Shown: positions 12,148 to 57,140, counted from the first letter of the stretch. The stretch: DNA of 64,000 nt from Hyphomicrobiales bacterium (GCA_017642935.1 JAEPOK010000002.1:682001-746000); one strand, 5' to 3'. A program made the numbers and translations. The notes: generated from the sequence alone by a model not told the origin.

Positions 12148-12455
12148 CGATCGCTCTCCTATAGCTGGCGTCCTTTACGCCGCCGGGCGTTTGGCGCCGG
12201 CTTTGTGCATTGCACAGTGCACAATGCCCTAAGATATGACGCACTCTTTTGCAAAGCACAACCGGAGGCGATCGCCCATTCGCCTTGCGTCGCAATGCTT
12301 GACGCGGATCAAGGATGACCAGTGCCTTTTGAACAATTGAACCGGCCTAGGTCCTTGTGTTTCATTGGGTCTATCGATTTGGCCATTTTCGGCTTTTCGC
12401 CTTCATCATCATGGCCCGCACGCAGGTGCAGCAAGGGTCTACCGGGAGAGACTTC
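12148..12455. other. 308-base divergent promoter region phaR/phaA
   Basis: No gene is present. The phaA frame can be read upstream to 12357, but the ribosome site and homology favour the ATG at 12456. The region contains the TGC-rich palindrome at 12203-12224 and a related TTTTGCAAAGCACAA stretch at 12248-12262. Confidence 0.7.
12203..12224. promoter_or_regulatory. Proposed PhaR operator between phaR and phaA
   Basis: TTGTGCA (12203-12209) and TGCACAA (12218-12224) are inverted arms around the core. Inside is the perfect palindrome TGCATTGCA (12206-12214), of the form TGCRNYGCA, overlapping a second palindrome TGCAC-A-GTGCA (12211-12221). PhaR proteins are known to bind TGC-rich sites; the assignment here is inference from sequence and position. 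Confidence 0.6.
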
Positions 12456-13628
12456 ATGACTTCAGTGGTTATTGCATCGGCGGCACGGACTGCCGTTGGA
12501 TCCTTCAATGGTGCCTTCGGAACCGTGCCAGCGCATCAGCTTGGCGCAACCGCCATCTCCGGCGCGCTGGAGCGCGCGGGTGTCGATCCGGGTGACGTCG
12601 ATGAAGTGATCATGGGCCAGATCCTCTCCGCCGGCGAAGGGCAGAACCCCGCCCGCCAGGCAGCGATGGCCGCGGGCATTCCGCAGGAGGCGACAGCCTG
12701 GGGTCTCAACCAGCTCTGCGGCTCGGGCCTACGCGCCGTGGCGCTGGGCATGCAGCAGATCATGTCCGGCGATGCCGACATCATCGTGGCCGGTGGTCAG
12801 GAGTCGATGTCGATGGCCCCGCACGCCATGCATCTGCGCGGTGGCGTGAAGATGGGCGACGGCAAGATGGTCGATACCATGATGTACGACGCGCTGACCG
12901 ATGCGTTTCACAAATATCTGATGGGCACGACGGCCGAGAACGTTGCCAAGCAATGGCAGTTGACGCGCGATGAGCAGGACGAATTTGCCGTCAACTCGCA
13001 GAACAAGGCCGAAGCGGCGCAGAAGGCTGGCAAGTTCAAGGACGAAATCGTCGCGCACACCATCAAAGGTCGTAAGGGCGACACGGTGGTGGACGAGGAT
13101 GAGTACATCAAGCACGGCGTGACAGTGGAAGGCATTTCCAAGCTGCGCCCGGCCTTCGACAAAGAAGGCACGGTGACGGCCGCCAATGCGTCGGGCATCA
13201 ATGATGGCGGCGCGGCAACCGTGCTGATGAGTGAAGCCGAAGCGGAAAAACGCGGCATCACGCCGATGGCGCGGATCGCTTCTTGGGCAACGGCAGGTGT
13301 CGATCCGGCGATCATGGGCACCGGTCCAATCCCGGCCTCGCGCAAAGCGTTGGAGAAAGCCGGATGGAAGGTTGAGGACCTTGATCTGGTCGAAGCCAAT
13401 GAGGCTTTCGCTGCCCAAGCTTGCGCCGTGAACAAGGACATGGGCTGGGATTCCTCCATCGTGAACGTCAATGGCGGCGCGATTGCCATCGGTCACCCGG
13501 TGGGTGCATCTGGCGCGCGCGTGCTCAACACGCTGCTCTTTGAGATGCAGAAGCGTGACGCCAAAAAGGGCCTCGCCACACTGTGCATCGGCGGCGGCAT
13601 GGGCGTTGCCCTGTGTGTGGAACGCTAA
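12456..13628 (+). CDS. phaA: Acetyl-CoA acetyltransferase (beta-ketothiolase)
   Basis: The product is 390 residues from the ATG at 12456 (GGGAGAG about six bases upstream). It is a complete biosynthetic thiolase: the nucleophilic cysteine in [15 protein letters not shown], the [14 protein letters not shown] block, the NEAFAAQA block, the histidine in [11 protein letters not shown] and the second cysteine in CIGGGMG. It condenses two acetyl-CoA to acetoacetyl-CoA, the first step to PHB and to the ethylmalonyl-CoA pathway. phaB follows 99 bases later on the same strand, so the two are probably an operon. Confidence 0.97.
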
Positions 13629-13727
13629 GACGGTCTCTCCCCATCACATCTAAAGGCCGGGCGTCCACGCGCCGCGAAGAGCGCTCGTCCGGCCCTTCTT
13701 TTTCCATTCAATCTTGAGGAAACATCC

Positions 13728-14453
13728 ATGGCCAGAGTGGCACTTGTTACAGGCGGTTCGCGCGGTATCGGCGAAGCGATTTCAAAGGCATTGAAGGCAG
13801 AGGGCTGCACCGTCGCCGCCACCTATGCCGGCAATGACGAAAAGGCAGCGGCCTTCACTGAAGAAACCGGCATTAAAACCTACAAATGGAACGTTGCCGA
13901 TTATGACGCTTCCGCCGCTGGTATTGCCAAGGTGGAAGAAGAAAACGGCCCGATCGACATCGTCGTTGCCAATGCCGGCATCACCCGCGACGCGCCTTTT
14001 CATCGGATGACGCCTGACCAGTGGAACGAAGTGATTGGCACCAATTTGACCGGCGTGTTCAACACCATCCATCCGGTGTGGCCAGGCATGCGCGAGCGCA
14101 AATTTGGCCGCGTGATCGTGATTTCGTCGATCAACGGACAAAAGGGTCAGTTCGGCCAGGTGAACTATGCCGCCACGAAGGCTGGTGACCTTGGCATTAT
14201 CAAATCGCTGGCCCAGGAAGGCGCGCGCGCGGGCATCACCGCCAATGCCGTTTGCCCTGGCTACATCGGCACGGAAATGGTGCGGGCGATCCCGGAGAAC
14301 GTGCTGAACGAAAAGATCATTCCGCAGATCCCGGTTGGTCGCCTTGGCGAACCAGAAGAGATTGCGCGCTGCGTGACGTTCCTGGCGTCAGACGATGCGG
14401 GCTTCATCTCCGGCTCGACGATCTCGGCCAACGGCGCGCAGTTCTTCGTTTAG
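13728..14453 (+). CDS. phaB: Acetoacetyl-CoA reductase (NADPH)
   Basis: The 241-residue product is a classical short-chain dehydrogenase. TGGSRGIGEAI is the cofactor loop, NAGITRD the NAG motif, and the Ser-Tyr-Lys set lies in VISSINGQKGQFGQ with NYAATKAG. The PGYIGTEMV segment and the C-terminus match PhaB. It reduces acetoacetyl-CoA to (R)-3-hydroxybutyryl-CoA. It lies downstream of phaA, with GAGGAAA before the ATG. Confidence 0.96.
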   Translation: MARVALVTGGSRGIGEAISKALKAEGCTVAATYAGNDEKAAAFTEETGIKTYKWNVADYDASAAGIAKVEEENGPIDIVVANAGITRDAPFHRMTPDQWNEVIGTNLTGVFNTIHPVWPGMRERKFGRVIVISSINGQKGQFGQVNYAATKAGDLGIIKSLAQEGARAGITANAVCPGYIGTEMVRAIPENVLNEKIIPQIPVGRLGEPEEIARCVTFLASDDAGFISGSTISANGAQFFV

Positions 14454-14479
14454 AGCGATCGCTCTACAAACCATCGCGC

Positions 14480-14506
14480 GTCATCCCGGCTTTGAGCCGG
14501 GGTGAC
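14480..14506. repeat. GTCAT...TGAC palindromic element, copy 2 (compact)
   Basis: GTCATCCCGGC (14480-14490), loop TTTGA, GCCGGGGTGAC (14496-14506). This is a compact form of the same intergenic family. It begins 27 bases after phaB and could also act as a transcription end. Confidence 0.75.
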
Positions 14507-14612
14507 GTACGAAGTGTGTTGCGTGCTGTTCTCCACGTGTCACTTGGTTGACGGGCGTTAACGACTTGCCGCCCTCTGCGGTGTCATCCTTTTAACGTGC
14601 ACCTGCTAAACC

Positions 14613-15659
14613 ATGCGCAGACACCCACCGCGCATGAGGGCCGTTTTGGCCGACCTTTCCACGTCTGATAGGGCTTTGAATCCCGTTTCCTTCCTGCGGG
14701 CCCGCGCTGCGGGCTGGCGTTGGCGCGATGAGGCGGTGGGCGTGGTCATGGTTGGATTTGCCGGCCTAGTGATGGTCGCCGCGCTGCCGCATCTTCTGCC
14801 CGGCACACCTTTGGTCCATCTCGATCAAGGGCGGCTGCATGCGGGCGTTGGCTTCATCGCCTGTGCGCTGGTTTTGTTCCTGCTTCAGGCGCCGGTGCGA
14901 GCTTTGGTGAGCGCCGTGACGGGGTCGGTGATGCTGGCAAGTATCGCACTTTTTGCCATAAGCAGCTTGGCACCGATGGCGCCCGATCGACGCCCCGACC
15001 TTTCGATGATCTCTTTCAACGTTCTTGGCTTCAATCCGCGCGGCGCCGATCTGGCGGTTTTTCTCGCGAGCGAGGCCCCTGATGTTGCCGTGATCCTCGA
15101 GGCGCCCGCGCTGCACGATGATCTCGACACCATGAACGCGGCCTTTCCTTACAATGCTGGATGTGGACTGGGTTCGCGGTGCGACCTTGCGGTGTTTTCT
15201 CAACATCCGCTCCGCGAGGTGGAAATCATTCCGTTTTTCACCATCCATGGCCGGTTGCTTCGCGCCGTCATCGACATGGATGGCCAAGATGTCACGCTGC
15301 TCGCGGCGCACCTCACCAAGCCCTATCACGGCAACTGGCACGATCAGCAGATGGACCGGTTGGTGGAGGTTTTGGACGGCGTCGAGGGGCCGGTGGTGCT
15401 CGCTGGTGATTTCAACAGCCAAGCCTTTGTGCGGGCCTTTCGTACCCACCTGATCGGTGAGGCCGATATGCGTTTGGCGTCGCGATTGCAACCGACCTGG
15501 CCGGCGCTCGACGCGCTGCCGTTATCGATGGCAGGCTTTGCGATCGACCATGTGCTTGTACGTGGGGAGATTGCACCCGTCGCGGTCGAGCTGATCGAAG
15601 ACCCGATCGGCTCCAACCATCGCGGGCTCCTGTCGACCTTCGATCTGGATGGGCGCTAG
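14613..15659 (+). CDS. Membrane-anchored endonuclease/exonuclease/phosphatase family protein
   Basis: The 348-residue product has about three membrane helices in its first 125 residues, then an EEP-fold hydrolase domain. Motifs are MISFNVLGFN (metal-binding Asn), VILEAP (metal-binding Glu), LLAAHLTKP, VVLAGDFNSQ and the final AIDHVLV with GSNHRGL. The catalytic set is complete. Such proteins are phosphodiesterases or phosphatases of unknown substrate; the domain is probably periplasmic. It stands alone downstream of phaAB. Confidence 0.85.
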   Translation: MRRHPPRMRAVLADLSTSDRALNPVSFLRARAAGWRWRDEAVGVVMVGFAGLVMVAALPHLLPGTPLVHLDQGRLHAGVGFIACALVLFLLQAPVRALVSAVTGSVMLASIALFAISSLAPMAPDRRPDLSMISFNVLGFNPRGADLAVFLASEAPDVAVILEAPALHDDLDTMNAAFPYNAGCGLGSRCDLAVFSQHPLREVEIIPFFTIHGRLLRAVIDMDGQDVTLLAAHLTKPYHGNWHDQQMDRLVEVLDGVEGPVVLAGDFNSQAFVRAFRTHLIGEADMRLASRLQPTWPALDALPLSMAGFAIDHVLVRGEIAPVAVELIEDPIGSNHRGLLSTFDLDGR

Positions 15660-15723
15660 AGCGATTGGGCCAGAGGCTCAGGGCGACAGGCAAAGACCAG
15701 TTGGTTCGCTCATATTGGCTGAA

Positions 15724-15803
15724 CGCACGCTCTGGTCCTTCGACCAACCGCTTAGCGCCTTATTTTCCGCACGCTCTGGTCCTTCGGACCAACCGCTTAA
15801 CGT
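15724..15803. repeat. Two tandem copies of a short hairpin repeat (GGTCC-TTC-GGACC type)
   Basis: CGCACGCTCTGGTCCTTC starts one unit at 15724 and another at 15768. Unit 2 forms GGTCC (15778-15782) / GGACC (15786-15790) with a TTC loop; unit 1 lacks one G. Both end in CCAACCGCTTA. A related tandem array at 26689-26769 has GGGCC/GGCCC arms. The region lies between convergent genes. Confidence 0.7.
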
Positions 15804-17125
15804 TCGGGGACCACGTCCAATTCAGCTTTTTTCGGTTCGGCATCGTCGCCGGCCAAATCGTCCGACATAAGCCGCGATAATAGCTGATCCACATCCGCGT
15901 CGGCTTCGACGTCTGCCATCAGCGGCACATCAATCGGCGCGGCCGTGACAGCCGGATCAACAGCGGTGACGTCGGCTTCCTTGGTCTCGGCATCATTGTC
16001 GCCGTCTTTGGCCTCATCACCTCCTGTAAGATCAGCGAACAGCGCATCGATGGAGCTGTCCTCTTCGACGGGAACGGCGGCACCGTTGGACTTAGGCGTT
16101 GTGTCGTCTGTGCTCTCCGGTGCATCGGCGACCAGTTCTGCGGCGAGTTCCGCCTCAAGCTCCGCATCGAGATCGGTGCCGAGATCTTCGGAAAGACTGA
16201 CGGCCAGATCATCACTCAGCGAAGCCGCGATGGCATCTTCCAGACCAACATCAATGGCCGGCGCGTCGGTGCTGTCCACCTTGCTATCGTCGGCCTTGTC
16301 AGCAGAGGCTTCGGCTTTTTCGTCGGTTTCTGGTTTTGTGTCGGCTTCGGCCTCTGTTTCATCGGAGGCAATCAGCGCAGCGGCTCCAGCACCGGCAGTA
16401 GCGCCCGCGACCAGGATCGGGCCGGTTTTCGGATCAGGCCAGGCATCGCCCTCTTTGCGGTCGCTGTCGGGTTTATGTTGCTCGGGATGATCCACATGCG
16501 GCTTGTCGTCTTCGGATTTCGTGTCCGATTTGGCATCAACAGGCTTTTCGTCGGTTTTGTCGTCAACCTTGTCCTGAGCCTTCTCGGTGCGGCTGACAAA
16601 GGGAGCGCGCGGGGCGAGCGGCTCGAGCGGTTTGCGCTCGCGCGGCGTGTAGCTCGGCGCTGGAGCGATGCTCGCACTGCGGTCGATCTCAAAATCGTCC
16701 AGATCGATGAGACCGTCAGCCAGCGCCTCAAGCGCAGAGGAAATCGTCGAATGGTCTACCACCGACACCATCATCAGCCGTTCGCGCGCCAGACGCGCAA
16801 GCGCGGTATAATCGGTGGAGCCGCCAAGCAGGATCGCTTCTTCATAGGTCGCGTCGCTCGCAGAAAATTCATAGAGATCGAAGCTCATGCGGATCAGCGT
16901 CTCGTCGGGTCCATTGGTCTCGACGATCTCAAAACCGGCCTCGCGATAGGCGGTGCGGCGGTAGCTCGATACGCGGTTGGAGCAATAGGCGCGCATAACC
17001 GCGATCTGGCGGGTCAGCCCATGCATGGTGTGAGACAGTTCGCCGATCAGAGCGGCGGGATTGGCCTGACCTTTGGCCAGCGCTTCAAAGCCTTGGACGT
17101 CGACAAGCAACAAGCTGGTCATCAT
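15797..17125 (-). CDS. NYN/LabA-like domain protein with long acidic tail
   Basis: The product is 442 residues. The first 140 or so residues look like a divergent NYN (PIN-like) domain: LLLVDVQGFEAL at the start, SFDLYEFSAS and ILLGGSTDYTALARLAR, where acidic residues fall in the places that bind metal in NYN nucleases. From about residue 150 the chain is low-complexity and very rich in Asp, Glu, Lys and Ala, broken by one short hydrophobic stretch GPILVAGATAGAGAAALIAS near residue 235. The tail may be disordered and bind basic or RNA-binding partners. Nuclease activity is not established. Its stop codon is within the second hairpin repeat. Confidence 0.65.
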   Translation of the reverse strand: MMTSLLLVDVQGFEALAKGQANPAALIGELSHTMHGLTRQIAVMRAYCSNRVSSYRRTAYREAGFEIVETNGPDETLIRMSFDLYEFSASDATYEEAILLGGSTDYTALARLARERLMMVSVVDHSTISSALEALADGLIDLDDFEIDRSASIAPAPSYTPRERKPLEPLAPRAPFVSRTEKAQDKVDDKTDEKPVDAKSDTKSEDDKPHVDHPEQHKPDSDRKEGDAWPDPKTGPILVAGATAGAGAAALIASDETEAEADTKPETDEKAEASADKADDSKVDSTDAPAIDVGLEDAIAASLSDDLAVSLSEDLGTDLDAELEAELAAELVADAPESTDDTTPKSNGAAVPVEEDSSIDALFADLTGGDEAKDGDNDAETKEADVTAVDPAVTAAPIDVPLMADVEADADVDQLLSRLMSDDLAGDDAEPKKAELDVVPER

Positions 17126-17302
17126 GGTGGTCGGCCCTCTTCAAGATTGGTGCAATGACGTGGTGCCTGCGGAGGTATGGCACAGCCGTGCCGGCGACAA
17201 GCACAACCCGATCAGGCAGTTAACTCGTGATTTCGATGGTATCGCCCCACCATCTGAGTCTAGGAGGGGCACAGAAGACGGCAAAAATGAGATTGGTAAG
17301 AT

Positions 17303-18217
17303 TTGACGTTGGGTGAATTTGACGGTGGCAAGGCGCGGCGACGGGCGACGCTGATCGGTTTTGGCGCGGTGGCGATGTGGGCGACGCTCGGCCTCTTCAC
17401 CGCGATGACCGGGGAAAACGCGGCGTCCGATGGGGCGTCGGTGCCACCTTTTCTGCTGAATGCCTTGTGTTTTGGGCTCGCTGGCGTGCTCGCGCTGATC
17501 GTCTTGTGGCGTCAAGGTCGGTTACGCGATGTGACCGCGACGACGCCGGCTGCGCTGTCGCTGACGGTTGCCGGGCTGTTTGGCTATCACGCGCTTTACT
17601 TCACTGCCCTACGCAATGCGCCGGCGGTGGAGGCCAACCTTATCAACTATCTCTGGCCGCTACTGATTGTGCTTTTCTCCGGTCTGCTGCCCGGCGAGCG
17701 GCTGCGCTGGTTCCACGGTCTTGGCGCCGTGATCGGTTTTGCCGGCGCTGGTCTGCTCATTTGGGCGCAGGGCGTCAGTTTCGATGCCCGCTTCGCGCTT
17801 GGCTACGGCGCAGCTATCGGTTCAGCGCTCGCCTGGTCGAGCTATTCGGTGCTTTCGCGGCTCTTCCCAGATGTGCCGACCGGCGCGGTTGCCGGGGCGT
17901 GCATCCTAACCTCGCTTCTCTCAGTCATGTGCCACTTGTTCTTTGAGACAACGGTCTGGCCGGCGACATTGACCAACTGGGTCGGTGTGGTCGCGCTTGG
18001 CCTGTTCCCGGTCGGCGCTGCGTTCTTCGTCTGGGACATCGGCATGAAGCGCGGCGACATTCAGGTGCTTGGCGCGGCGGCTTACGCGACCCCGATCCTT
18101 TCCACGCTGCTTTTGATCGCCTTCGGGTTCGGCGCACTGACCTGGCCCGTCGTCATCGCCTGCCTGCTGGTGACGCTCGGCGCGATGATCGCTGCCAAAG
18201 ACATGCTGTTACGATGA
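17303..18217 (+). CDS. EamA-family (DMT) exporter, YddG-like
   Basis: The 304-residue product has ten predicted membrane helices in two EamA halves. NYLWPLLIVLFSG in the first half and AWSSYSVLSRLF in the second recall the YddG group of aromatic amino acid exporters; substrate is not certain. The frame opens at a TTG at 17303 with another TTG at 17309, and I see no strong ribosome site, so the start is tentative. Its end overlaps the convergent DUF985 gene by nine bases. Confidence 0.85.
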   Translation: MTLGEFDGGKARRRATLIGFGAVAMWATLGLFTAMTGENAASDGASVPPFLLNALCFGLAGVLALIVLWRQGRLRDVTATTPAALSLTVAGLFGYHALYFTALRNAPAVEANLINYLWPLLIVLFSGLLPGERLRWFHGLGAVIGFAGAGLLIWAQGVSFDARFALGYGAAIGSALAWSSYSVLSRLFPDVPTGAVAGACILTSLLSVMCHLFFETTVWPATLTNWVGVVALGLFPVGAAFFVWDIGMKRGDIQVLGAAAYATPILSTLLLIAFGFGALTWPVVIACLLVTLGAMIAAKDMLLR

Positions 18218-18646
18218 CGGCGAGCGCGGGGTTGGGCGCCAATCGGGTGATGCCATTTCAAATCCATCGAAGGTGAAGCCCGGCGCTACGGTGCAGCCGA
18301 CAAGCGTCCATTCGCCAAGGCTTTCGGCCGTCTGCCACCAATCGGCGGGCACTACGATCTGAGGGCGTTCGCCCAGCGCCAGGTTTGGGCCAAGCCGGTG
18401 AGCCTCGGCATCGTGAGCGTTGGGGGATAGTGTCAGCGCCAGCGGGCTGCCAGCGTACCAGTGCCAGATCTCGGCAGCATCCACCTTATGCCACGCGGAG
18501 CAGTCGCCGATGCCCAGCGCGTAGTAGATCGCCGTGCCAACCGAGCGTCCGTCTTCTTCGCGCGGGTCGCGAAAGGTTTCCTTGTAGTAGCCGCCTTCGG
18601 GATGCGGCTGCAGATCAAGCGCCGCGACAATCTCCTCGAATGTCAT
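18209..18646 (-). CDS. Cupin-like DUF985 family protein
   Basis: The 145-residue product begins MTFEEIVAALDLQPHPEGG and contains YYKETFRDPR, AIYYALGIGDCSAWHKVD, AEIWHWYAGSPL and the final VGCTVAPGFTFDGFEMA, the pattern of the DUF985 cupin family. Function is unknown; some relatives bind sugars or metals. The ATG overlaps the stop of the LysE-type gene (ATGA), so translation is probably coupled in the gloB-lysE-DUF985 unit. A longer in-frame extension to 19006 overlaps the exporter gene and is not credible. Confidence 0.88.
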   Translation of the reverse strand: MTFEEIVAALDLQPHPEGGYYKETFRDPREEDGRSVGTAIYYALGIGDCSAWHKVDAAEIWHWYAGSPLALTLSPNAHDAEAHRLGPNLALGERPQIVVPADWWQTAESLGEWTLVGCTVAPGFTFDGFEMASPDWRPTPRSPSS

Positions 18647-45035: not shown

Positions 45036-45914
45036 TTACCGCGTCGGCACCGGCGTTTCGCCGCGATAGTCGTAAAAGCCGCGGCCGGCCTTGCGGCCCA
45101 CCCAGCCGGCTTCGACATACTTCACCAGCAGCGGGCAGGGACGGTATTTGGTATCGGCCAAGCCGTCATAGAGCACCTGCATGACCGACAAACAGGTGTC
45201 CAGACCGATGAAATCGGCCAGCTGCAATGGGCCCATTGGGTGGTTGGCGCCGAGCTTCATGGCGGTGTCGATCGATTCCACCGAGCCAACACCCTCATAG
45301 AGCGTGTAGATCGCCTCATTGATCATCGGCAGAAGGATGCGGTTGACGATGAAGGCCGGGAAATCTTCGGCCACCGTGATCTGCTTGCCGATATTGGCAA
45401 CGAACCCGCGCGAGGCTTCATAGGTCTCGTCGTCGGTGGCGATGCCGCGCACCACTTCGACCAACTCCATCAGCGGCACCGGGTTCATGAAGTGAATGCC
45501 GATGAATTTTTCCGGCCGGTCGGTGGAGGCGGCCAGGCGGGTGATGGAAATGGAGGATGTGTTGGTGGCGAGGATGGAGTCCGATTTCACCACTGGCGCC
45601 AGTTGCGACAGAATTTTGCGCTTGATGGTTTCGTCTTCGGTGGCGGACTCAATCACCAGATCGCAGTCGGCCATGTTCTCATAACTGTCGGAGGCCTGGA
45701 TGCGGGCGAGCGCCGGTTTGATTTCGGCTTCCTTGATGATGTCCTTGGAGGCCTGGCGGTTCATGTTGCCGGAGATGGTGGCGAGGCCCTCTTCGACCTT
45801 GTCCATTGAAAGGTCCTGCAGAACCACATCCATGCCGGACAGCGCGCAGACATGGGCGATACCCGATCCCATCTGTCCGGCGCCTACAATGCCAACCTTT
45901 TGAATGCCACTCAT
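45036..45914 (-). CDS. hbd: 3-hydroxybutyryl-CoA dehydrogenase
   Basis: The 292-residue product has the NAD loop VGIVGAGQMGSGIAHVCAL, the LVIESATEDETIKRKI block, NTSSISITRLA, the catalytic histidine in IGIHFMNPVPLMELVEVV and the C-terminal LGANHPMGPLQLADFIGLD. It interconverts 3-hydroxybutyryl-CoA and acetoacetyl-CoA. It follows etfB-etfA on the same strand (57 bases after etfA), a conserved rhizobial order, and links to the PHB/EMC theme of the window. Confidence 0.94.
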   Translation of the reverse strand: MSGIQKVGIVGAGQMGSGIAHVCALSGMDVVLQDLSMDKVEEGLATISGNMNRQASKDIIKEAEIKPALARIQASDSYENMADCDLVIESATEDETIKRKILSQLAPVVKSDSILATNTSSISITRLAASTDRPEKFIGIHFMNPVPLMELVEVVRGIATDDETYEASRGFVANIGKQITVAEDFPAFIVNRILLPMINEAIYTLYEGVGSVESIDTAMKLGANHPMGPLQLADFIGLDTCLSVMQVLYDGLADTKYRPCPLLVKYVEAGWVGRKAGRGFYDYRGETPVPTR

Positions 45915-45970
45915 TGTTCGTTTGTTCTTTCTATCCGCAGCGCCAAGCTCAAAGAGCGTGCGCTACCTTT

Positions 45971-46912
45971 CTAGGATTCAACGGCTGATTTCAACTCTGG
46001 CAGGACGTCAAACAGGTCGGCGACCAGACCGTAATCGGCGACGTCGAAGATGGGGGCATCCTCATCCTTGTTGATGGCGACGATAACGCGGCTGTCTTTC
46101 ATGCCCGCCAAATGCTGGATCGCGCCGGAAATGCCGGCGGCGATGTAAAGGTCCGGGGCGACCACTTTGCCGGTCTGGCCAACCTGCCAATCATTGGGCG
46201 CGTAGCCGGCATCGACCGCCGCGCGTGAAGCGCCAACGGCGGCACCTAAGGCATCGGCAAGGGGCAGGATGACGCGCTCGAACTCTTCCTTCGAGCCAAG
46301 CGCCCGTCCGCCGGACAGGATGACTTTCGCGCTGGTGAGTTCCGGACGCTCGCTTTCGGCCATGTCGGCGGAAACAAAGCTGGAGACTGCCGGCAAATCT
46401 GGGATCGCGATGGCTTCAACCGAGGCTGACCCACCGCCGCTCGCCGCATCAAAGGCGGTGCCGCGCACAGTGATCACTTTCTTGGCGTCGCTGGATTTGA
46501 CCGTCTGGATGGCATTGCCTGCATAGATCGGACGCTGGAACGTGTCGGCGCTTTCCACCTTAATGATGTCGGAGAGTTGCATCACGTCGAGCAGCGCCGC
46601 CACCCGCGGCATGATGTTTTTGCCGGTGGTTGTGGCCGGTGCGACAAAGGCGTTGTAACCGTCAGCAAGCGAGAGAATGAGCGCGGCCATCGGTTCGGCG
46701 AGCGCATGTTCCAACGCCGGATCATCGGCGTGCAGCACTTTTTGGACGCCTTCCAGGGCGGCTGCCTCCGTTGCGACGGCCTCTGAACCGGAACCGGCCA
46801 CCAGCACATCGACCGGCGCACCCAGCTCTTTGGCGGCGGCGAGTGCCTTGGCCGTTTCGGCGGAAAGGGCGGCGTTGCCGTGATCGGCGATCAGGAGTGT
46901 GGTCATCGTCAT
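45971..46912 (-). CDS. etfA: Electron transfer flavoprotein alpha subunit
   Basis: The 313-residue product has the ETF-alpha FAD-binding C-terminal half: [32 protein letters not shown] and [20 protein letters not shown], followed by [20 protein letters not shown]. It pairs with EtfB to carry electrons from acyl-CoA dehydrogenases to ETF-ubiquinone oxidoreductase. The methylsuccinyl-CoA dehydrogenase at 52331 is a likely donor. It starts six bases after etfB. Confidence 0.97.
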
Positions 46913-46918
46913 GTCTTC

Positions 46919-47668
46919 CTAAAGAACGCCGGCTTCGGATTTGAGTTTTTCCACCAGTTCACCCACATCGGCGACCTTCACGCCTGCCTCGCGTTTGGCC
47001 GGGGCGGCGGTGGCGAGTACTTCCAAGTGTGGGGAAAAATCAACGCCGATGTCGTCTGGTGTTTTGGTATCAAGCGGTTTTTTCTTGGCCTTCATGATGT
47101 TGGGCAAGGACGCATAGCGCGGCTCATTGAGGCGCAAATCGGTGGTGATAATGGCGGGCAGCGCCAGCTTCACGGTTTCCAGGCCGCCATCAACCTCGCG
47201 AGTGACGGCGACGCTGTCACCGTCCAGCTCCACTTTGGAGGCGAAGGTGCCCTGGCCCCAGCCAAGAAGCGCGGCCAGCATCTGGCCGGTTTGGTTGCAA
47301 TCATCATCGATCGCCTGTTTGCCCATGATCACGAGATTGGGGTCTTCCTCAGCGATGATCGCTTTGAGTGCCTTGGCAACGGCCAGTGGCTCGGTGGTGT
47401 CGTCGGTTTTGACCAAGATCGCCCGGTCTGCACCCATGGCGAGCGCCGTGCGCAAGGTTTCCTGCGCCTTCTCAGGGCCTATGGAAACGGCGACGATCTC
47501 TTCGGCCTTGCCGGCCTCCTTCAGGCGCAGCGCCTCTTCGACGGCAATCTCGTCGAAGGGGTTCATCGACATTTTCACGTTGGCGAGGTTCACCCCCGAC
47601 CCGTCTTCCTTCACCGTGATGGTCACATTGTAGTCGACCACACGTTTGACCGGCACCAAGATCTTCAC
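46919..47668 (-). CDS. etfB: Electron transfer flavoprotein beta subunit
   Basis: The 249-residue product begins [15 protein letters not shown] and has [38 protein letters not shown] and [20 protein letters not shown], the EtfB signature with the AMP-binding region. It forms the heterodimer with EtfA. A palindrome TGCATCGCA lies 71 bases upstream of the start codon, matching the TGCRNYGCA pattern found upstream of the PHB and EMC genes. Confidence 0.97.
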
Positions 47669-47738
47669 GCAGACTTCCTATCGTTGCGGTTGGGCTGTAG
47701 CGGCGCTGGCGCGCATGGCCTGGGGTCAAGGCAGGTTG

Positions 47739-47747
47739 TGCATCGCA
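47739..47747. promoter_or_regulatory. Candidate PhaR site upstream of etfBA-hbd
   Basis: TGCATCGCA, within TTGTGCATCGCAGCAAAG, fits TGCRNYGCA and is followed by GCA. It lies 71 bases upstream of etfB and between the rhomboid gene and etfB. Assignment is inference from the shared motif. Confidence 0.45.
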
Positions 47748-47837
47748 GCAAAGCGCTGGCGGCAAGCTAGGGCTGGGCCATCATGCTGTCAACGATCCCA
47801 AAGTCGGCCTTTGAGTGGGCCTCGGGATCGACGCCGG

Positions 47838-48599: not shown

Positions 48600-49187
48600 T
48601 TAGCGGTTTTTGCCCGGCACCCACAAGACGTCGGCGGCGCCCTTGTCGTTTGTCCAGCGCGCAGCGACGAAGAGAAAATCCGACAGGCGGTTGAGATACC
48701 GTCGCACGGCATCGCTCACCATGCCCGGTTCCTGATCGGCGAGCTCCACCGACAGCCGCTCGGCGCGGCGCGACACGGTGCGGGCCACATGCAGAGCAGC
48801 GGCGGCGGGCGTGCCGCCCGGCAAGACGAAAGAATTGAGTGGCGAGAGGTCGGCGTTCAGCGTGTCGATTTCGCTTTCGAGCCGTTCCACTTGCGATGGA
48901 ACAACGCGCAGTGGTTCGTAGCCAAGGTCTTCCTCGGTCGGTGGGGTAGAGAGATCCGCGCCCAGATCGAACAGATCGTTTTGAATGCGCATCAGCATGG
49001 CATCGAGATCGGCGAGGGCAGGGTCGGCACCTGTGGATAGCCGTGCCATGCCGATGGCGGCATTGGTTTCGTCCACCGTGCCATAGGCTTCAACGCGCAG
49101 ATCGAACTTTTTGCGCCGCTCGCCCGAGCCGAGGCCTGTCGTGCCATCGTCGCCGGTTTTCGTGTAGATTTTTGTCAGAACGACCAT
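48600..49187 (-). CDS. PduO-type ATP:cob(I)alamin adenosyltransferase
   Basis: The 195-residue product has the PduO-type signatures TKIYTKTGDDGTTGLGSGER at the N-terminus, VEAYGTVDETNAAIG, FVLPGGTPAAAALHVARTV with RRAER, and YLNRLSDFLFVAAR. It makes adenosylcobalamin, the cofactor of ethylmalonyl-CoA mutase (57182) and methylmalonyl-CoA mutase. It starts upstream of the rhomboid gene. Confidence 0.96.
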   Translation of the reverse strand: MVVLTKIYTKTGDDGTTGLGSGERRKKFDLRVEAYGTVDETNAAIGMARLSTGADPALADLDAMLMRIQNDLFDLGADLSTPPTEEDLGYEPLRVVPSQVERLESEIDTLNADLSPLNSFVLPGGTPAAAALHVARTVSRRAERLSVELADQEPGMVSDAVRRYLNRLSDFLFVAARWTNDKGAADVLWVPGKNR

Positions 49188-50104: not shown

Positions 50105-50164
50105 GAGGCGTCTTACGGTTCAGGGCAGCGGCTGGGTCACTCAATGGCTGGCATTCTTTGCCGC

Positions 50165-50743: not shown

Positions 50744-51577
50744 CTATTTGTCGCGGGCGCGGGCGAGCATCGTCGCCTGCCAACGCGTCGGGGCCAGCCG
50801 TTTGACCAGTGCCATCAGATGCGTGGGTGTCGTGACCCGGTAGGTCGGTTTGGGGTTGGCGCTTTCCAGCGCCTTGATCAGCACCCGCGTCACTGCTTGC
50901 GGGCCCAACTCGAAGGCAGCTTTGTCGCGCGATGTCAGGCGTTTCAGCTGGGCCGCATAATCATCAGCATAAGCGGAAGTATCCGCATCAACGGTGCGCT
51001 GAAAAACCGCCAGCGCATTGGCGCGGAAGCGGCTGGTGATCGGGCCGGGTTGGATGGAGATCACCTTGATGCCGAAGCGGCTGACTTCGGAGCGCAGCGA
51101 GTCGGAGTAGCCTTCCAACGCAAATTTCGAGGCAACATACGGTCCGCGATACGGCGCAGCGATGAAACCCAGAACGCTGGAGCATTGGACAATGCGGCCT
51201 GATCCTTGAGCGCGCATCACCGGAAGCGCCAATTGGGTGAGCCGGTGGATGCCAAAAAAGTTAGCCTCGAACTGCGCGCGCATGTGCTCCGTCGATATGT
51301 CCTCAAGCGCGCCAACCTGGCCATAGGCGCCATTGTTGAACAGGGCATCGAGCCCGCCGCCGGTTTGCTCCAGCGTGGCTTCGAATGCGGCGGGGATGCT
51401 TGCCTCATCGGCATAGTCGAGCTGGACAGCATTGAGACCCTCGTCGCGCAGGCGGCTCACATCGCCCTCTTTACGCGCGGCGGCGATCACCTGCCAGCCG
51501 CGTTTGTGCAAGGCATGGGCGGCATGGTGGCCAATGCCGGACGAGGCACCTGTGATGAGAATGGAGCGTTGACTCAT
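50744..51577 (-). CDS. Short-chain dehydrogenase/reductase
   Basis: The 277-residue product has SILITGASSGIGHHAAHALH as cofactor loop, LFNNGAYGQ as the NAG-like motif, the catalytic Ser in VQCSSVLGF and Tyr-Lys in GPYVASKFALEGYSD. An Asp in QLDYADEAS follows. The group is the retinol-dehydrogenase-like SDRs; the substrate is unknown. It ends 66 bases before the tspO start and is preceded by the BLUF gene on the same strand. Confidence 0.92.
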   Translation of the reverse strand: MSQRSILITGASSGIGHHAAHALHKRGWQVIAAARKEGDVSRLRDEGLNAVQLDYADEASIPAAFEATLEQTGGGLDALFNNGAYGQVGALEDISTEHMRAQFEANFFGIHRLTQLALPVMRAQGSGRIVQCSSVLGFIAAPYRGPYVASKFALEGYSDSLRSEVSRFGIKVISIQPGPITSRFRANALAVFQRTVDADTSAYADDYAAQLKRLTSRDKAAFELGPQAVTRVLIKALESANPKPTYRVTTPTHLMALVKRLAPTRWQATMLARARDK

Positions 51578-51609
51578 GCGCTCGCCTTAGCCTGCTGGTG
51601 GCAAGCAGG

Positions 51610-52074
51610 CTAGGCGGCGAGCGTTTTGTCGCGGCGGTTGGAGCTGTCGAGCTTGGCACAGACCAGCGCGATCTGCTCGATCAGGTCCCCCAGCGCGTGC
51701 GGCGCCAACTGGTACGGGCAGAACTTGGGGCGCACTTTGTATTTGGAGAACACCGGGTTTGTCTCGCTGGCGATATCGAACGCGGCCAGCGAGGGCGAGG
51801 TGAATTGCCGGGTTACCAAAGGGCCTGCATGGACAAGGTTCACCTCATGATGACGCTGATCCTGAGCGATGCGATTGTAGGTATCACTCAACGGGCCGCG
51901 CGGTCCCTCCATCACCTGAATGAAGAAATCGTCGACATGGATGAGGCAGCCGGAGACGCCGTGCGGCCGGTTGTTCTTATCAGCCTGCTTGACGAGACTG
52001 CTGAGAAAGATGCGACGCTGCTCTCCGCGCATTTCTGGCGCGCGACTGATGTAAGTGATGGTGTAGAGCGGCAT
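51610..52074 (-). CDS. BLUF-domain blue-light sensor
   Basis: The 154-residue product is a short BLUF protein. Tyr8 in ITYISRA and Gln53 in DFFIQVMEG are the FAD-coupled photoswitch pair, Asn34/35 in KNNRPHGVSGCL the flavin-binding asparagine, and RIAQDQRHHEVNL the second conserved block. Only about 60 residues follow, without an output enzyme, so it probably works by binding a partner. The SDR gene follows after 32 bases and may be co-transcribed. Confidence 0.93.
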   Translation of the reverse strand: MPLYTITYISRAPEMRGEQRRIFLSSLVKQADKNNRPHGVSGCLIHVDDFFIQVMEGPRGPLSDTYNRIAQDQRHHEVNLVHAGPLVTRQFTSPSLAAFDIASETNPVFSKYKVRPKFCPYQLAPHALGDLIEQIALVCAKLDSSNRRDKTLAA

Positions 52075-52172
52075 GCTACCAACTTTCTGACAGATGGTGG
52101 CAGTTTCTCTACCTCAAGTTGCATTTGTGTTAAATACAATCCAATTTGACGCAACTGGATGTTTGCTTGGAT

Positions 52173-52352
52173 TTACGCTTCCAGCAAACACTTGATCTTT
52201 TTGCCCATGGCTCCGGGCGAAAAACCGGTTCCCACTTTTGCTGAGCCATGGGGTATCGCTCACGCCTCTAAGAGGCGTTTCGCGATCAACACTGTTTATG
52301 GCGTGATCGCCGGATCGCGTTTGTTGTCGCTTACGCTTCCAGCAAACGCTTG
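52173..52352. repeat. Hairpin repeat copy 2, flanked by a direct repeat of the mcd 3' end
   Basis: TTACGCTTCCAGCAAAC opens both 52173 and 52331; the 22-base copies differ at one base. The right copy is the end of mcd (last codons and stop). Between them are three inverted repeats: CCATGGCTC/GAGCCATGG (52205-52213, 52243-52251), ACGCCTCT/AGAGGCGT (52262-52269, 52271-52278) and CGCGATC/GATCGCG (52281-52287, 52313-52319). The first encloses, inverted, the core also seen at 1567-1605. Confidence 0.75.
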
Positions 52353-54007
52353 GCGATCACTTGTGCCTGTATTTCTGCGGCACCCTCAAAGATGTTGAGG
52401 ATGCGGGCATCGCAGAGCACACGGGAAATCGCATACTCAAGCGCGAAACCATTGCCGCCATGGATCTGTAGCGCATTGTCGGCATTCGCCCAGGCGATGC
52501 GGGCGCAGAGTAGCTTAGCCATCCCGGCTTCCACGTCGCAGCGGCGGCCTTCATCTTTCTCACGCGCGGAGAAATAGGTGAGCTGACGGCCGATCATGGT
52601 CTCAACGGCCATCATGGCTAGCTTGTCGGCGACGCGCGGGAAGTGGATCAGCGCTTTGCCGAACTGCACCCGCTCCTTGGCGTAACGCAGGCCAAGATCG
52701 AGCGCCGACTGAGCAACGCCAACGGCGCGGGCGGCGGTTTGAATGCGTGCCGACTCGAAGGTTTCCATCAGCTGTTTGAAACCATTGCCTTCGGTCTCAC
52801 CGAGCAGATTGGCGGCGGGCACCTCGAAACCATCGAAGGCGATCTCATACTCTTTCATGCCGCGATAGCCGAGCACTTCAATCTCGCCGCCGGATAGGTT
52901 CGGATGCGGAAAGGGGTCTTCATCGCTGCCGCGCGGTTTCTCCGCGATGAACATCGACAAGCCCTTGTAGCTCGGCTCATCAGGGTTGGTGCGGGCAAGC
53001 ACAGTCATGATGTCGGCGCGCACCGGATGGGTGATCCAGGTTTTGTTGCCGTTGATCGTGTAGGTGTCGCCGTCCAGCGTGGCACGGGTCTTCAGGGACG
53101 CAAGGTCTGACCCTGTGTTGGGTTCTGTGAAGACGGCGGTGGGGAGGATCTCGCCGGACGCGATCTGCGGCAGCCATTTTTCCTTCTGGGCATCCGTGCC
53201 ACCGCAAAGGATAAGCTCGGCTGCGATTTCCGAGCGCGTGCCCAGCGAACCGACACCGATATAGGCGCGCGATAGCTCTTCGGAGACCACGCACATCGCT
53301 TCCTTGCCGAGACCCAGGCCGCCATACTCTTCCGGGATTGTCAGGCCGAAGACGCCGAGCTCGGACATCTGTTCGATGATCTCCATCGGGATGTAGTCAT
53401 TGGCCAGATGCCATTCATGGGCGTGCGGCTCGACGGCATCGGCGGCGAAGCGGCGCATTTCGGAGCGGAACGCTTCCATCGTTTCGTCCAAGCCATCGGC
53501 GCCGACGGTCGCCGCGCCGCCATCATCCATCATGGTGGCGACCAAGGCCGCGCGCTTGTCGGTGCCGGAACCAAGAGCGATGAGGGCGCGCACCGATGGA
53601 TTGTCGGAAAAGGCGCGCGCCGTTTCCGGGGCCACGCCAAGGGCGGCAAGACGAACAATCTCGCCTTGGTTCATCGGAATGCCGCCCTCGATCTGGGCAA
53701 GATATTCGGCAAAGCCGATTTCGATGATTAGTGTTTCGGTTTCACCAAAAAGACCGTCGCCTTGCAGGCGCTGGGCGTAGGCGATGAGTTCACGCAGCGC
53801 TTCGCGATAGGTGGCCAGCCACGCAAGACCGTGTGCGGCGTGCTGATGCTGTTCGAGCAGCGCGCCTTTGACGCGGCCACCGTCCATGGTCAGAGAAGAG
53901 ACCGATTGCTTGGCGGCCTCATAGACCGCGTTCACCGCTTGAAGGGCCTCGGCTGCCAGGTCGAGACTGTTGGCATCGTCCAGCGTCAAATCTTCGGCCA
54001 AGCTCAT
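52331..54007 (-). CDS. mcd: (2S)-methylsuccinyl-CoA dehydrogenase
   Basis: The 558-residue product is an acyl-CoA dehydrogenase with an extra N-terminal domain of about 160 residues, the length that marks Mcd. The core has FGLTIPEEYGGLGLGKEAM, FTEPNTGSDLASLKTRA, NGNKTWITHPVRADIM, the catalytic-base region around MKEYEIAFDGFEVP and the closing QIHGGNGFALEYAISRVLCD. It oxidises methylsuccinyl-CoA to mesaconyl-CoA in the EMC pathway, passing electrons to ETF (etfAB at 45971-47668). Two TGCRNYGCA sites lie upstream. ccr and ecm are close by. Confidence 0.93.
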   Translation of the reverse strand: MSLAEDLTLDDANSLDLAAEALQAVNAVYEAAKQSVSSLTMDGGRVKGALLEQHQHAAHGLAWLATYREALRELIAYAQRLQGDGLFGETETLIIEIGFAEYLAQIEGGIPMNQGEIVRLAALGVAPETARAFSDNPSVRALIALGSGTDKRAALVATMMDDGGAATVGADGLDETMEAFRSEMRRFAADAVEPHAHEWHLANDYIPMEIIEQMSELGVFGLTIPEEYGGLGLGKEAMCVVSEELSRAYIGVGSLGTRSEIAAELILCGGTDAQKEKWLPQIASGEILPTAVFTEPNTGSDLASLKTRATLDGDTYTINGNKTWITHPVRADIMTVLARTNPDEPSYKGLSMFIAEKPRGSDEDPFPHPNLSGGEIEVLGYRGMKEYEIAFDGFEVPAANLLGETEGNGFKQLMETFESARIQTAARAVGVAQSALDLGLRYAKERVQFGKALIHFPRVADKLAMMAVETMIGRQLTYFSAREKDEGRRCDVEAGMAKLLCARIAWANADNALQIHGGNGFALEYAISRVLCDARILNIFEGAAEIQAQVIAKRLLEA

Positions 54008-54055
54008 GGTGATGTCCTCGCTTCTTGCCCGGATTGGCTTGCGTCAGGGTATTTG

Positions 54056-54088
54056 TGCGGCGCAAAATGATCAACAGTTTGCACTGCA
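54056..54088. promoter_or_regulatory. Two candidate PhaR sites upstream of mcd
   Basis: TGCGGCGCA (54056-54064) and TGCACTGCA (54080-54088, inside the perfect palindrome TTGCACTGCAA at 54079-54089) are 24 bases apart centre to centre. Both fit TGCRNYGCA and lie 49-81 bases upstream of the mcd start codon. Confidence 0.5.
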
Positions 54089-54141
54089 ACAACCCCGCCG
54101 ATGGGCCTAGTTGATTGACTGCGCAGGCGCGCTAGCAGCGC

Positions 54142-55017
54142 TCAGGACGGTTTTTTGTTGACCAGATAGACGCCAAACACGGTGATCACCATGCCAAGGA
54201 TCGCAATCGGCGCGAGGTTTTCGCCGAAGAGCAGCCAGGCTTCAATCGCGACCAGAGGTGGGATCAAATAGATCAACGTTGCCGCGCGCGAAACCGCACC
54301 GTGACGGATCAACAGCAACAACAGGCCGATGGCTGCCAGCGACAGGCCAATCACCGACCAGGCCATGATCAACAGGCTCTGCCCATTGATGGTGATGTGC
54401 ATCTCTTCCATCAGAAAGGCGAAGGGCAGGGTGGCGAGCGTTGCCCCGATATATTGCAGAAACGAGATGGCGCGCAGATCGCCGCCTTGCAAAAAGCGCT
54501 TCTGGTAAAGCGTGCCGAGGGTCACCGAAATCATCGCCACCACATTGATGACGATGAGCCAGGACGCGGCGGCGAATGATTCACCTTCAAGCGCGAAAAG
54601 GCGCGGCAGCAGCGCAACAACCAGGCCAGCAAAGCCAAGTACCAAGCCAAGCCATTGTTTTTTCGTAAGATGTTCGGCGAGCCAGGTGACGGCCAAAACG
54701 GCCGTCAGCAGCGGTTGCAGCGCGGCAATCAGGCCTGAGAGCGGCGTCGCCAGCCCCTCATCGATCACATACCAAACGCCGCCGAGATAGATCGCGTGCA
54801 AGAGAACGCCGGACGCCAGGCCGTGAGCCCAGAGATGTCGGTCGCTCGGCAGTTTCACATTGAAGGCGAGCATGATGAGGAAGAGCGCCAGAGCCGCCAG
54901 CGCATAGCGCGCCGCCAGGAAGGTGAGCGGATCGGCCAAGGGTGCCGCAGCGCGCGCGGTGATCCAACCCGTGGACCAGATGAGCACGAAAAGAACGGGC
55001 GCAAGGCGCAGCAGCAT
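54142..55017 (-). CDS. EamA-family (DMT) transporter
   Basis: The 291-residue product has ten predicted helices. LIWSTGWITARAAAPLADPL is the usual first helix of this group, LQPLLTAVLAVTWLAEHLTK ends the first half and YLIPPLVAIEAWLLFGENLAP the second. The substrate is unknown. It lies between ccr and mcd on the same strand, an arrangement I recall from other Rhizobiales, so it may export or import an intermediate of the pathway, but that is speculation. Confidence 0.88.
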   Translation of the reverse strand: MLLRLAPVLFVLIWSTGWITARAAAPLADPLTFLAARYALAALALFLIMLAFNVKLPSDRHLWAHGLASGVLLHAIYLGGVWYVIDEGLATPLSGLIAALQPLLTAVLAVTWLAEHLTKKQWLGLVLGFAGLVVALLPRLFALEGESFAAASWLIVINVVAMISVTLGTLYQKRFLQGGDLRAISFLQYIGATLATLPFAFLMEEMHITINGQSLLIMAWSVIGLSLAAIGLLLLLIRHGAVSRAATLIYLIPPLVAIEAWLLFGENLAPIAILGMVITVFGVYLVNKKPS

Positions 55018-55074
55018 GGAAGGCTTTCGGGGAAAGGGCGACGATGCTGCGGCTTACGCGCTCAGCGTTCCTTT

Positions 55075-55179
55075 GTCATCCCGGTCAAGCAGTCACCTTT
55101 GTTTGCGCGCGCCGGGATCGCCATTGCCAGAAACCGTTGGTTACGATCCCGGATAGCCCTTGTGGGCTTCCGGGATGAC
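55075..55179. repeat. GTCATCCCGG...CCGGGATGAC element, copy 4
   Basis: Perfect 10-base inverted ends GTCATCCCGG (55075-55084) and CCGGGATGAC (55170-55179) enclose 85 bases with internal CCGGGATCG and CGATCCCGG arms. It lies between ccr and the DMT gene, eight bases after the ccr stop on the minus strand. Confidence 0.85.
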
Positions 55180-55186
55180 ACTGTTT

Positions 55187-56455
55187 TTAACCCGCCGCGT
55201 CGAGCACATCCTCAAAGGTGCGCAGGCCGGGTTTTGGCGATCCTACCAAGCAAGCCATGTTGCCCGGCGCGTGCTGGTTTTTGTACATTTTGGTGTGCGC
55301 CTTGGGGATGTCGCGCCAGGCGAACACTTCCGACATGCAAGGGTCGATGCGGCGCTCAATCACCAGTTTATTGGCAGCTGCCGCCTGTTTCAGATGGGCG
55401 AAGTGAGAACCCTGCACACGCTTCTGGTGCATCCAAACATAACGCGCATCCATGGTGAGGTTGAAGCCGGTGGTGCCAGCGCAAATGACGATCATGCCGC
55501 CGCGTTTGCAAACAAAGGTGGACACAGGGAAGGTGCTCTCGCCGGGGTGTTCGAAGACGAAATCGACGTTCACGCCTTTGCCGGTGATGTCCCAGATCGC
55601 TTTGCCGAACTTGCGGACCTCAGAGAACCACGTGTCGTACTCGTCCGAGCCAACCTTCGGCAGTTGACCCCAACAGTTGAAGTCTTTGCGGTTGAGCACG
55701 CCCTTGGCGCCGAGCGACATGACGAAGTCGCGCTTGTCTTCATCGGAGATCACGCCGATGGCGTTGGCCCCAGCGGCAGCGCAAATCTGCGTGGCGAACA
55801 CGCCAAGGCCGCCTGAAGCACCCCAGACCAAAACATTGTCGCCCGGTCGCAGCACGTGCGGGCGGTGGCCGTAGAGCATGCGGTACGCGGTGGCGAGCGT
55901 CAGCGTGTAGCAGGAGGCTTCTTCCCAGGTCAGATGCTTGGGCCGCGCCATCAGCTGGCGAGCCTGCACGCGGGTGAACTGGGCGAAGGAGCCATCCATC
56001 GTCTCATAGCCCCAGATGCGCTGGGAGGGGGAGAACATGGGGTCGCCGCCATTGCACTCTTCGTCGTCGCCATCATCCTGATTGCAGTGGATGACGACTT
56101 CATCGCCGACTTTCCAACGCTTCACCTTGGAACCGACGGCCCACACGATGCCGGATGCATCCGATCCGTTGACGACATAGTCGTTCTTGATGAAATCGAA
56201 GGGCGAAATCGGCTCGCCAAGGCCGGCCCAGATGGCGTTGTAATTGACGCCGGCGGCCATGACGAAGACCAGCACTTCATCATCGCCAATCTCCCAAACC
56301 GGCACCACTTCCTGCTGCATGGCGACTTCCGGTTCGCCATGGCGTTCGCGGCGCACGGCCCAGGCATACATGTTAGCGGGGACGTGACCAAGCGGCGGGA
56401 TTTCGCCGATTTCGTACAAGTCTTTGATGTCACCGGAGGTTTCGGCAAGAGCCAT
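55187..56455 (-). CDS. ccr: Crotonyl-CoA carboxylase/reductase
   Basis: The 422-residue product is a medium-chain reductase. It has the long N-terminal Ccr region (IPPLGHVPANMYAWAVRRERHG, VLVFVMAAGVNYN), HCNQDDGDDEECNGGDPMFSPSQRI specific to Ccr (given here only in part), NVLVWGASGGLGVFATQICA as NADPH loop and GKGVNVDFVFEHPGE. It reductively carboxylates crotonyl-CoA to (2S)-ethylmalonyl-CoA, the committed step of the EMC pathway. It is divergent from the small membrane protein gene; a candidate PhaR site lies about 50 bases upstream. Confidence 0.96.
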   Translation of the reverse strand: MALAETSGDIKDLYEIGEIPPLGHVPANMYAWAVRRERHGEPEVAMQQEVVPVWEIGDDEVLVFVMAAGVNYNAIWAGLGEPISPFDFIKNDYVVNGSDASGIVWAVGSKVKRWKVGDEVVIHCNQDDGDDEECNGGDPMFSPSQRIWGYETMDGSFAQFTRVQARQLMARPKHLTWEEASCYTLTLATAYRMLYGHRPHVLRPGDNVLVWGASGGLGVFATQICAAAGANAIGVISDEDKRDFVMSLGAKGVLNRKDFNCWGQLPKVGSDEYDTWFSEVRKFGKAIWDITGKGVNVDFVFEHPGESTFPVSTFVCKRGGMIVICAGTTGFNLTMDARYVWMHQKRVQGSHFAHLKQAAAANKLVIERRIDPCMSEVFAWRDIPKAHTKMYKNQHAPGNMACLVGSPKPGLRTFEDVLDAAG

Positions 56456-56766
56456 GGCAGGGGCCTCTCAAGATCAGCTTTTGTGCAGCGAACTATGCAT
56501 TGCTGCGCTGCAAAAAACCATACGACCAATGTCCGTCAGGGATCGCAACCGACCTTTTACAAAGACAATCCCGGCTCGCTCAGAGACAGGTGTCCGCTTG
56601 GTTGGGATGAGGGCATTCTTGCGCTTTCAATTGGTAAACGCCGGTTAACCCTCTGCTCCGGCAAGGATAAACGGCCTGTTCATTGGCGGTTGGTATAACC
56701 ATTGCCGTAAGGGAACGTCTGGCGACGGAAGCGGACGGTTTCCCACACAGACAAGGATTTGGTGCT
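56456..56766. other. 311-base region between ccr and a small membrane protein gene
   Basis: No gene is supported. It contains a TGC-rich stretch near the ccr start (56481-56513) with the candidate PhaR site, and a near-CtrA sequence GTAA-N7-TTAA at 56634-56648 toward the membrane protein gene. Confidence 0.6.
56504..56512. promoter_or_regulatory. Candidate PhaR site upstream of ccr
   Basis: TGCGCTGCA fits TGCRNYGCA and lies 49 bases upstream of the ccr start codon. Read on the minus strand it is TGCAGCGCA followed by GCA. A near match TGCATTGCT overlaps its left side (56496-56504). Confidence 0.45.
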
Positions 56767-57072
56767 ATGGCCGCGATACTGCCGCCGTTTGTAATGGACA
56801 ATTTGTGGTTCATTTTTCTTATCGCCTCGGTTCTCACCTGGCCGATGGCCTGGCTTGCCGATGGCGCGTTCAGGGACAACGCCTTCGGGCTGATGGGCAA
56901 TTACATCCTGCTGATGATCGGATCGCTGGTCGGCGCGACATGGCTGATGCTCTATATCGGCTCGGCCACTCAGGTCATGAGCCAGCCGCATCTGCCGTTC
57001 TTCGCCGCCGTTGCTGGCGCGACGACACTGATCCTGGGTGCGTGCTTCTTGAAGCGTTTGGTGACGCGCTAG
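56767..57072 (+). CDS. Small three-helix membrane protein, unknown
   Basis: The product is 101 residues from the ATG at 56767, with AAGGA nine bases upstream. It has three helices: about residues 12-30 (LWFIFLIASVLTWPMAWLA), 42-65 and 76-95. No family is recognised. It lies between ccr and ecm, pointing toward ecm, with 109 bases between, so co-transcription with ecm is possible. Confidence 0.7.
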   Translation: MAAILPPFVMDNLWFIFLIASVLTWPMAWLADGAFRDNAFGLMGNYILLMIGSLVGATWLMLYIGSATQVMSQPHLPFFAAVAGATTLILGACFLKRLVTR

Positions 57073-57131
57073 CGTTGTGCGCCCAAAGGTGAGGTGACGC
57101 CGGTCCCTCTGCGCCCTATTGTGCCTTATGT

Positions 57132-57140
57132 TGCAGCGCA
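57132..57140. promoter_or_regulatory. Candidate PhaR site upstream of ecm
   Basis: TGCAGCGCA, within TTGCAGCGCACAC, fits TGCRNYGCA and lies 41 bases upstream of the ecm start codon at 57182. It would fall near the transcription start or early leader. Confidence 0.4.

Follow-up and report, generated by a model that had tools for sequence, protein, structure and literature searches.

Putative PhaR operators upstream of ethylmalonyl-CoA pathway genes in a Hyphomicrobiales bacterium

PHB and EMC genes and their candidate PhaR sites

The window analysed here, given as one strand, 5' to 3', is a stretch of 64,000 nt from a Hyphomicrobiales bacterium (GCA_017642935.1 JAEPOK010000002.1:682001-746000). 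It carries a phaR/phaA locus, an etfB-etfA-hbd unit and the ethylmalonyl-CoA (EMC) pathway genes mcd, ccr and ecm, which serve growth on acetate-like carbon. Bits and ranks in the list below refer to the PhaR matrix described later in this section.

11530-12147, minus strand: phaR, PHB-responsive transcriptional regulator, 205 aa (PF07879, PF05233, TIGR01848)
12200-12220: weak candidate PhaR site GCTTTGTGCATTGCACAGTGC, some 60 bp before phaR, with phaA at a distance of about 250 bp
12286-12294: second TGCRNYGCA match in the phaR/phaA gap, in poor context and outside the best 40 matrix positions
12456-13628, plus strand: phaA, acetyl-CoA acetyltransferase (ORF with ATG at 12456; NCBIfam thiolase family match)
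13728-14453, plus strand: phaB, acetoacetyl-CoA reductase (TIGR01829, 341.9 bits against a cut-off of 302.1)
45036-45914, minus strand: hbd (NCBIfam match, family level)
45971-46912, minus strand: etfA (NCBIfam match, family level)
46919-47668, minus strand: etfB (NCBIfam match, family level)
47733-47753: candidate PhaR site upstream of etfB, its centre about 75 bp before the start codon; 16.4 bits, fifth
52331-54007, minus strand: mcd, methylsuccinyl-CoA dehydrogenase-like acyl-CoA dehydrogenase, 558 aa (Pfam acyl-CoA dehydrogenase domains)
54050-54070: candidate PhaR site TATTTGTGCGGCGCAAAATGA; 21.3 bits, the window's best, some 50 bp before mcd
54074-54094: second candidate PhaR site upstream of mcd; 16.5 bits, fourth in the window
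55187-56455, minus strand: ccr, crotonyl-CoA carboxylase/reductase (TIGR01751 equivalog, 600 bits, above cut-off)
56498-56518: candidate PhaR site CATTGCTGCGCTGCAAAAAAC; 19.6 bits, third, some 54 bp before ccr
57126-57146: candidate PhaR site TTATGTTGCAGCGCACACTTT; 20.2 bits, second, some 45 bp before ecm
57182-59176, plus strand: ecm, 664 aa, ethylmalonyl-CoA mutase of the acyl-CoA mutase family (NCBIfam acyl-CoA mutase domains)

The regulator passes the NCBIfam equivalog model TIGR01848 with 151.5 bits (cut-off 109.45), and its Pfam matches are to PF07879 (PHB_acc_N, DNA-binding) and PF05233 (PHB_acc). The DNA-binding domain spans residues 15-75 and the PHB accumulation domain residues 79-117; a search of solved structures with PhaR found no relatives. 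In the same gap between phaR and phaA, the sequence TTTTGCAAAG at 12244-12264 resembles TTTGCAAA, which we take to be a half-site of ScfR/RamB-type regulators.

Two of the EMC genes match at family level and owe their names to context: mcd to its 558-aa form and its neighbours ccr and ecm, and ecm, which is divergent from ccr, to its place beside that gene. The same-strand arrangement of etfB, etfA and hbd (45036-47668, minus strand) makes a single transcription unit probable. Beside this operon lies a cobalamin adenosyltransferase gene (48600-49187), which fits the B12-dependent Ecm step.

Six TGCRNYGCA palindromes had been noticed upstream of these genes in the initial annotation, and on re-checking the sequence all lie where it placed them (12206-12214, 47739-47747, 54056-54064, 54080-54088, 56504-56512 and 57132-57140). 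The phaR/phaA gap holds one more that it overlooked, TGCGTCGCA (12286-12294). The remaining seven matches in the window (at 2884, 21417, 21723, 29591, 30377, 32524 and 59445) all score below 10 bits with the PhaR matrix, and none of them lies upstream of acyl-CoA or PHB genes. As the initial annotation cautioned, such a degenerate 9-mer recurs by chance: the window holds 14 matches and shuffled sequence 15.2, which is no enrichment; the whole 3.74-Mb genome holds 484, or about 8.3 per 64 kb. Counts of the bare 9-mer are uninformative as evidence and were set aside. The signal beyond chance lies in the placement of the sites and in their 21-bp context.

The motif named in the initial annotation is the published PhaR consensus of B. 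diazoefficiens, TGCRNYGCASMA, which was derived from DNase I footprints and gel shifts (PMC6201568). The S. meliloti PhaR motif, WNWDDNYGCRNYGCRNHHWNW, has AT-rich arms, and sites and promoters assayed for PhaR binding are available for this species (Table 3 of PMC12542648). A symmetric 21-bp matrix was built from 27 S. meliloti sites whose promoters are bound by PhaR in EMSA; the window sequence was not used. The five highest matrix scores in the 64 kb fall at mcd (54050), ecm (57126), ccr (56498), mcd again (54074) and etfB (47733), where chance would give no more than 0.3 occurrences of each score in 64 kb. All five sites have the TGCRNYGCA core with AT-rich arms. Because the matrix is independent of the window, the selection bias of the first inspection is removed for all regions but phaR/phaA.

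The phaR/phaA site is a different case. It scores 13.4 bits, a value expected 1.6 times in 64 kb, and takes rank 7 in the window, behind position 7024 near the end of an ORF (14.0 bits). Chance remains plausible for this site alone. The upstream alignment with a genome of the same genus (G003) does not show it conserved, and across the order 10 of 30 phaR upstream regions have a site of at least 15 bits. Autoregulation of phaR within the genus is doubtful.

Conservation and co-occurrence with PhaR

Within the genus, the ccr, ecm, mcd and etfB sites form conserved islands in diverged flanks. The block TTTTGC..GCACAA of the first mcd site is kept in 4/4 genus genomes, while the alignment does not conserve the second mcd site (54074-54094); the ecm site contains the conserved block ATGTTGCAGCGCACACT. 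The etfB site is likewise a conserved block, kept in 4/4 genomes (16.4, 18.5, 22.2 and 16.3 bits), and outside the genus it is patchy (9/30 in the order). A scan for sigma-70 promoters around the candidate sites recognised none. Adjoining the ccr site, a GGTCGTATGG-like block at 56515-56530 is conserved across the genus (orthologues L068-L070) and may be part of a promoter or another operator.

Conservation was followed further in 72 ccr loci from 34 families of the order (Hyphomicrobiales by named records), with up to 300 bp upstream of ccr. At the thresholds of 15 and 12 bits, both chosen after the window scan, 46/72 and 56/72 of these loci have a site. This is far denser than upstream of other predicted genes in the same loci, where 4/320 reach 15 bits, two of these four being etfB orthologues from the window's own genus. 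Shuffled ccr upstream regions have a site in a mean of 0.25 of 72 cases. For ecm and mcd, 30/59 and 9/30 upstream regions reach 15 bits; the ccr and ecm counts are not independent, as the two genes are often divergent with a common site. In two further sets from the class Alphaproteobacteria, 24/28 and 38/59 ccr loci have a site, in total 62/87 (about 70%). The motif is therefore conserved upstream of EMC orthologues in both the order and the class. The link is not universal, since about a third of the ccr loci with PhaR have no strong site.

The same picture is obtained without a matrix when every one of the 832 triplet palindromes (spacers of 0-12) is scored. TGC-N3-GCA ranks first of the 832 for ccr in the order (48/72 loci, 7.2 expected) and in the class (63/87, 8.7 expected). 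It is also first for ecm (44/59, 6.5 expected) and mcd (15/30, 3.1 expected), and second for etfB (14/30, 3.5 expected).

PhaR itself was found in 72/73 ccr genomes of the order set and in 76/80 of the class set. In the five ccr genomes where it was not found, the gene being possibly missing from the draft genome, the site is absent as well (0/5): the best ccr scores are 0.8 (G023), 4.4 (G127), 2.5 (G217), 1.6 (G474) and 0.3 bits (G495). Family mates of G474 retain sites of 18-22 bits. The association between the absence of the site and the absence of PhaR has a Fisher p of 0.003 at 15 bits, uncorrected for relatedness.

The whole genome was searched for PhaR sites of the same kind with a sequence-only covariance model. 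Among the matches, a double site precedes one phasin gene and a triple site precedes another, phasin-like gene. Sites also precede the genes for the PHB depolymerase PhaZ and 3-hydroxybutyrate dehydrogenase (TIGR01963), and one site lies 22 bp ahead of a PhaJ-like MaoC hydratase gene. The same list contains ccr, both mcd sites, ecm and phaR. The classical PhaR targets recovered in this way serve as internal positive controls, and most of the strong places in the genome would make sense as PhaR targets.

Proposed regulation and its alternatives

It is very probable, given the above, that the palindromes are operators for the PhaR encoded at 11530-12147, which would coordinate the EMC and ETF genes with the PHB genes and would be released by PHB. 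The regulon joining PHB and EMC genes, as first proposed, is supported for ccr, ecm, mcd and etfB, whose sites take the top five matrix places and are conserved within the genus except for the second mcd site. The phaR/phaA site is the weak part of the proposal, with its low score and its lack of conservation among genus members.

PhaR is known to bind PHB and to act mostly as a repressor, and PHB titrates it (PMC12542648). By analogy, free PhaR would occupy the promoter-proximal sites and so keep ccr, ecm, mcd and etfBA-hbd repressed, and the same repression would cover genes at other places in the genome, namely those for phasins, PHB depolymerase and 3-hydroxybutyrate dehydrogenase. As PHB accumulates, the granule would titrate PhaR off the DNA, and its release would free the EMC pathway and the ETF along with the granule proteins and PHB-turnover enzymes. 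The PHB level would then report a surplus of acetyl-CoA and acetoacetyl-CoA and turn on the route by which this surplus is assimilated. One sensor would thus probably co-ordinate the storage and the use of two-carbon units.

Binding by this PhaR, repression in preference to activation, and release by PHB are all drawn from the known systems, and a site common to several genes points to a common regulator but does not tell whether it activates or represses. PhaR might bind and activate the EMC genes, or modulate them slightly, in which case PHB would lower EMC expression. Activation by PhaR does have precedents: S. meliloti PhaR activates some genes, and seven motif-bearing genes lie in activated modules (PMC12542648), while pdhA and pckA of B. 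diazoefficiens may be positively regulated (PMC6201568). The motif in S. meliloti is, however, enriched among PhaR-repressed genes, and the candidate sites described here lie 45-80 bp before start codons, a placement that fits repression and is the range of repressed phasin promoters (PMC12542648). We consider activation or slight modulation unlikely.

That a regulator other than PhaR, with a closely similar palindrome, controls the EMC genes is very unlikely. The motif is assigned to PhaR by sequence match, and the title of a cited reference reports a TetR-type activator, CcrR, on an EMC gene in Methylobacterium. However, the model that finds the EMC sites also recovers the classical PhaR targets of this genome, and all five PhaR-less ccr genomes lack the site. 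In Paracoccus denitrificans, RamB/ScfR couples acetate assimilation to a metabolic signal in which EMC intermediates are involved, which resembles the proposal made here; it differs in that the target of activation by RamB is the glyoxylate cycle, through two boxes set 18 bp apart, and in that two other ScfR-type proteins, Pden_1350 and Pden_4472, had no effect on a ccr reporter and are excluded for ccr in this species (PMC10370305). The two-box RamB/ScfR glyoxylate-shunt motif was also considered as a candidate for the sites themselves, and it mismatches a single TGC-N3-GCA palindrome. Finally, chance matches of a degenerate 9-mer, noticed since these regions were looked at first, are extremely improbable as a general account and already refuted in silico for ccr, ecm, mcd and etfB: even with the plain 9-mer unenriched, an independent matrix places those five sites at the top of 64 kb, and 64-71% of orthologous ccr upstream regions have a site against about 1% of controls.

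PhaR as the regulator of the EMC genes can be compared with the regulons already described. The S. meliloti PhaR (AniA) regulon has the same motif with AT-rich arms, its direct targets include phasins and the PHB depolymerase, it extends to central carbon metabolism, and PHB releases PhaR. It differs in its carbon targets, which are pdh, bkd, ppdK, pyc, gltA and zwf-pgl-edd, and the terms crotonyl, ethylmalonyl and electron transfer flavoprotein are absent from the text of that paper (PMC12542648). In B. diazoefficiens, the footprint consensus is the motif that was named at the outset (PMC6201568). The targets there are phasins, phaZ, cyo, exo, ppc, pckA and pdhA, and the two papers do not mention EMC genes (PMC6201568, PMC10888616). 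In a literature search of open papers, PhaR sites at ccr, ecm or mcd were not reported anywhere, and the only ccr regulator encountered was in Methylobacterium. PhaR regulons that reach central metabolism are already known, while the EMC connection appears to be new, widely conserved and well supported in silico.

The conserved putative PhaR operator makes PhaR a candidate ccr regulator in most of the EMC-bearing Alphaproteobacteria examined. If this is true, PHB would be a signal deciding two-carbon assimilation and not a passive store. Deletions of phaR or phaC would then also alter EMC expression, which matters for engineering EMC-derived acids and PHB in one strain.

Methylotrophs and further PhaR-like sites

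The presence of the ccr site differs between lineages. It is found in 8/10 loci of Roseibium, and in Methylobacteriaceae a strong ccr site is present in 2/23 loci and absent from 21/23 (L290-L359). PhaR has been proposed to act in acetyl-CoA flux partitioning in M. extorquens AM1, according to work cited in PMC6520949, and this is akin to the role suggested here. That paper does not describe an operator at EMC genes, and the Methylobacteriaceae loci likewise set this group apart.

When genomes are divided by formaldehyde-activating enzyme (TIGR03126), taken to mark one-carbon metabolism, a strong ccr site is present in 5/21 positive and 42/51 negative genomes (p 4e-6; family means p 0.014). 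Among the positives, genomes with a RuBisCO-family match have ccr site scores of 13.7-22.9 and those without have 4.6-14.0; this split was made post hoc, and some of the RuBisCO-family matches are probably RuBisCO-like proteins. Methylotrophs have mostly lost the ccr PhaR site, above all those with no RuBisCO-family protein. It is tempting to speculate that an EMC pathway feeding the serine cycle must run whatever the PHB level is, and that the operator then decays. PHB acting via PhaR could be an old EMC switch across Alphaproteobacteria, whose operators were repeatedly dropped by serine-cycle C1 lineages with a constitutive EMC pathway; we hold the case for this history to be evenly balanced. 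Repeated operator loss, if true, would explain why the link went unfound in Methylobacterium, the EMC model.

An orphan ParA-family ATPase gene (NF041546) is preceded, at a distance of about 38 bp, by the highest-scoring PhaR-like site in the genome (26.9 bits); this locus is C1:452590-453304 (L024:804-1519). Six of 11 other orthologues (L368-L379) keep a site of at least 17 bits, and the protein is a candidate ATPase for the positioning or segregation of PHB granules. An acetate--CoA ligase (ADP-forming)-like gene (L035) has two further sites, one on either side of its likely start, at C3:160086 (21.4 bits) and C3:160177 (19.0 bits); if they are operators, they would place acetate activation in the same regulon. 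A 22-bit site at C2:104877 (L027) lies close to where a sulfur transferase-like gene (TIGR01244, Blh phosphatase-domain) starts.
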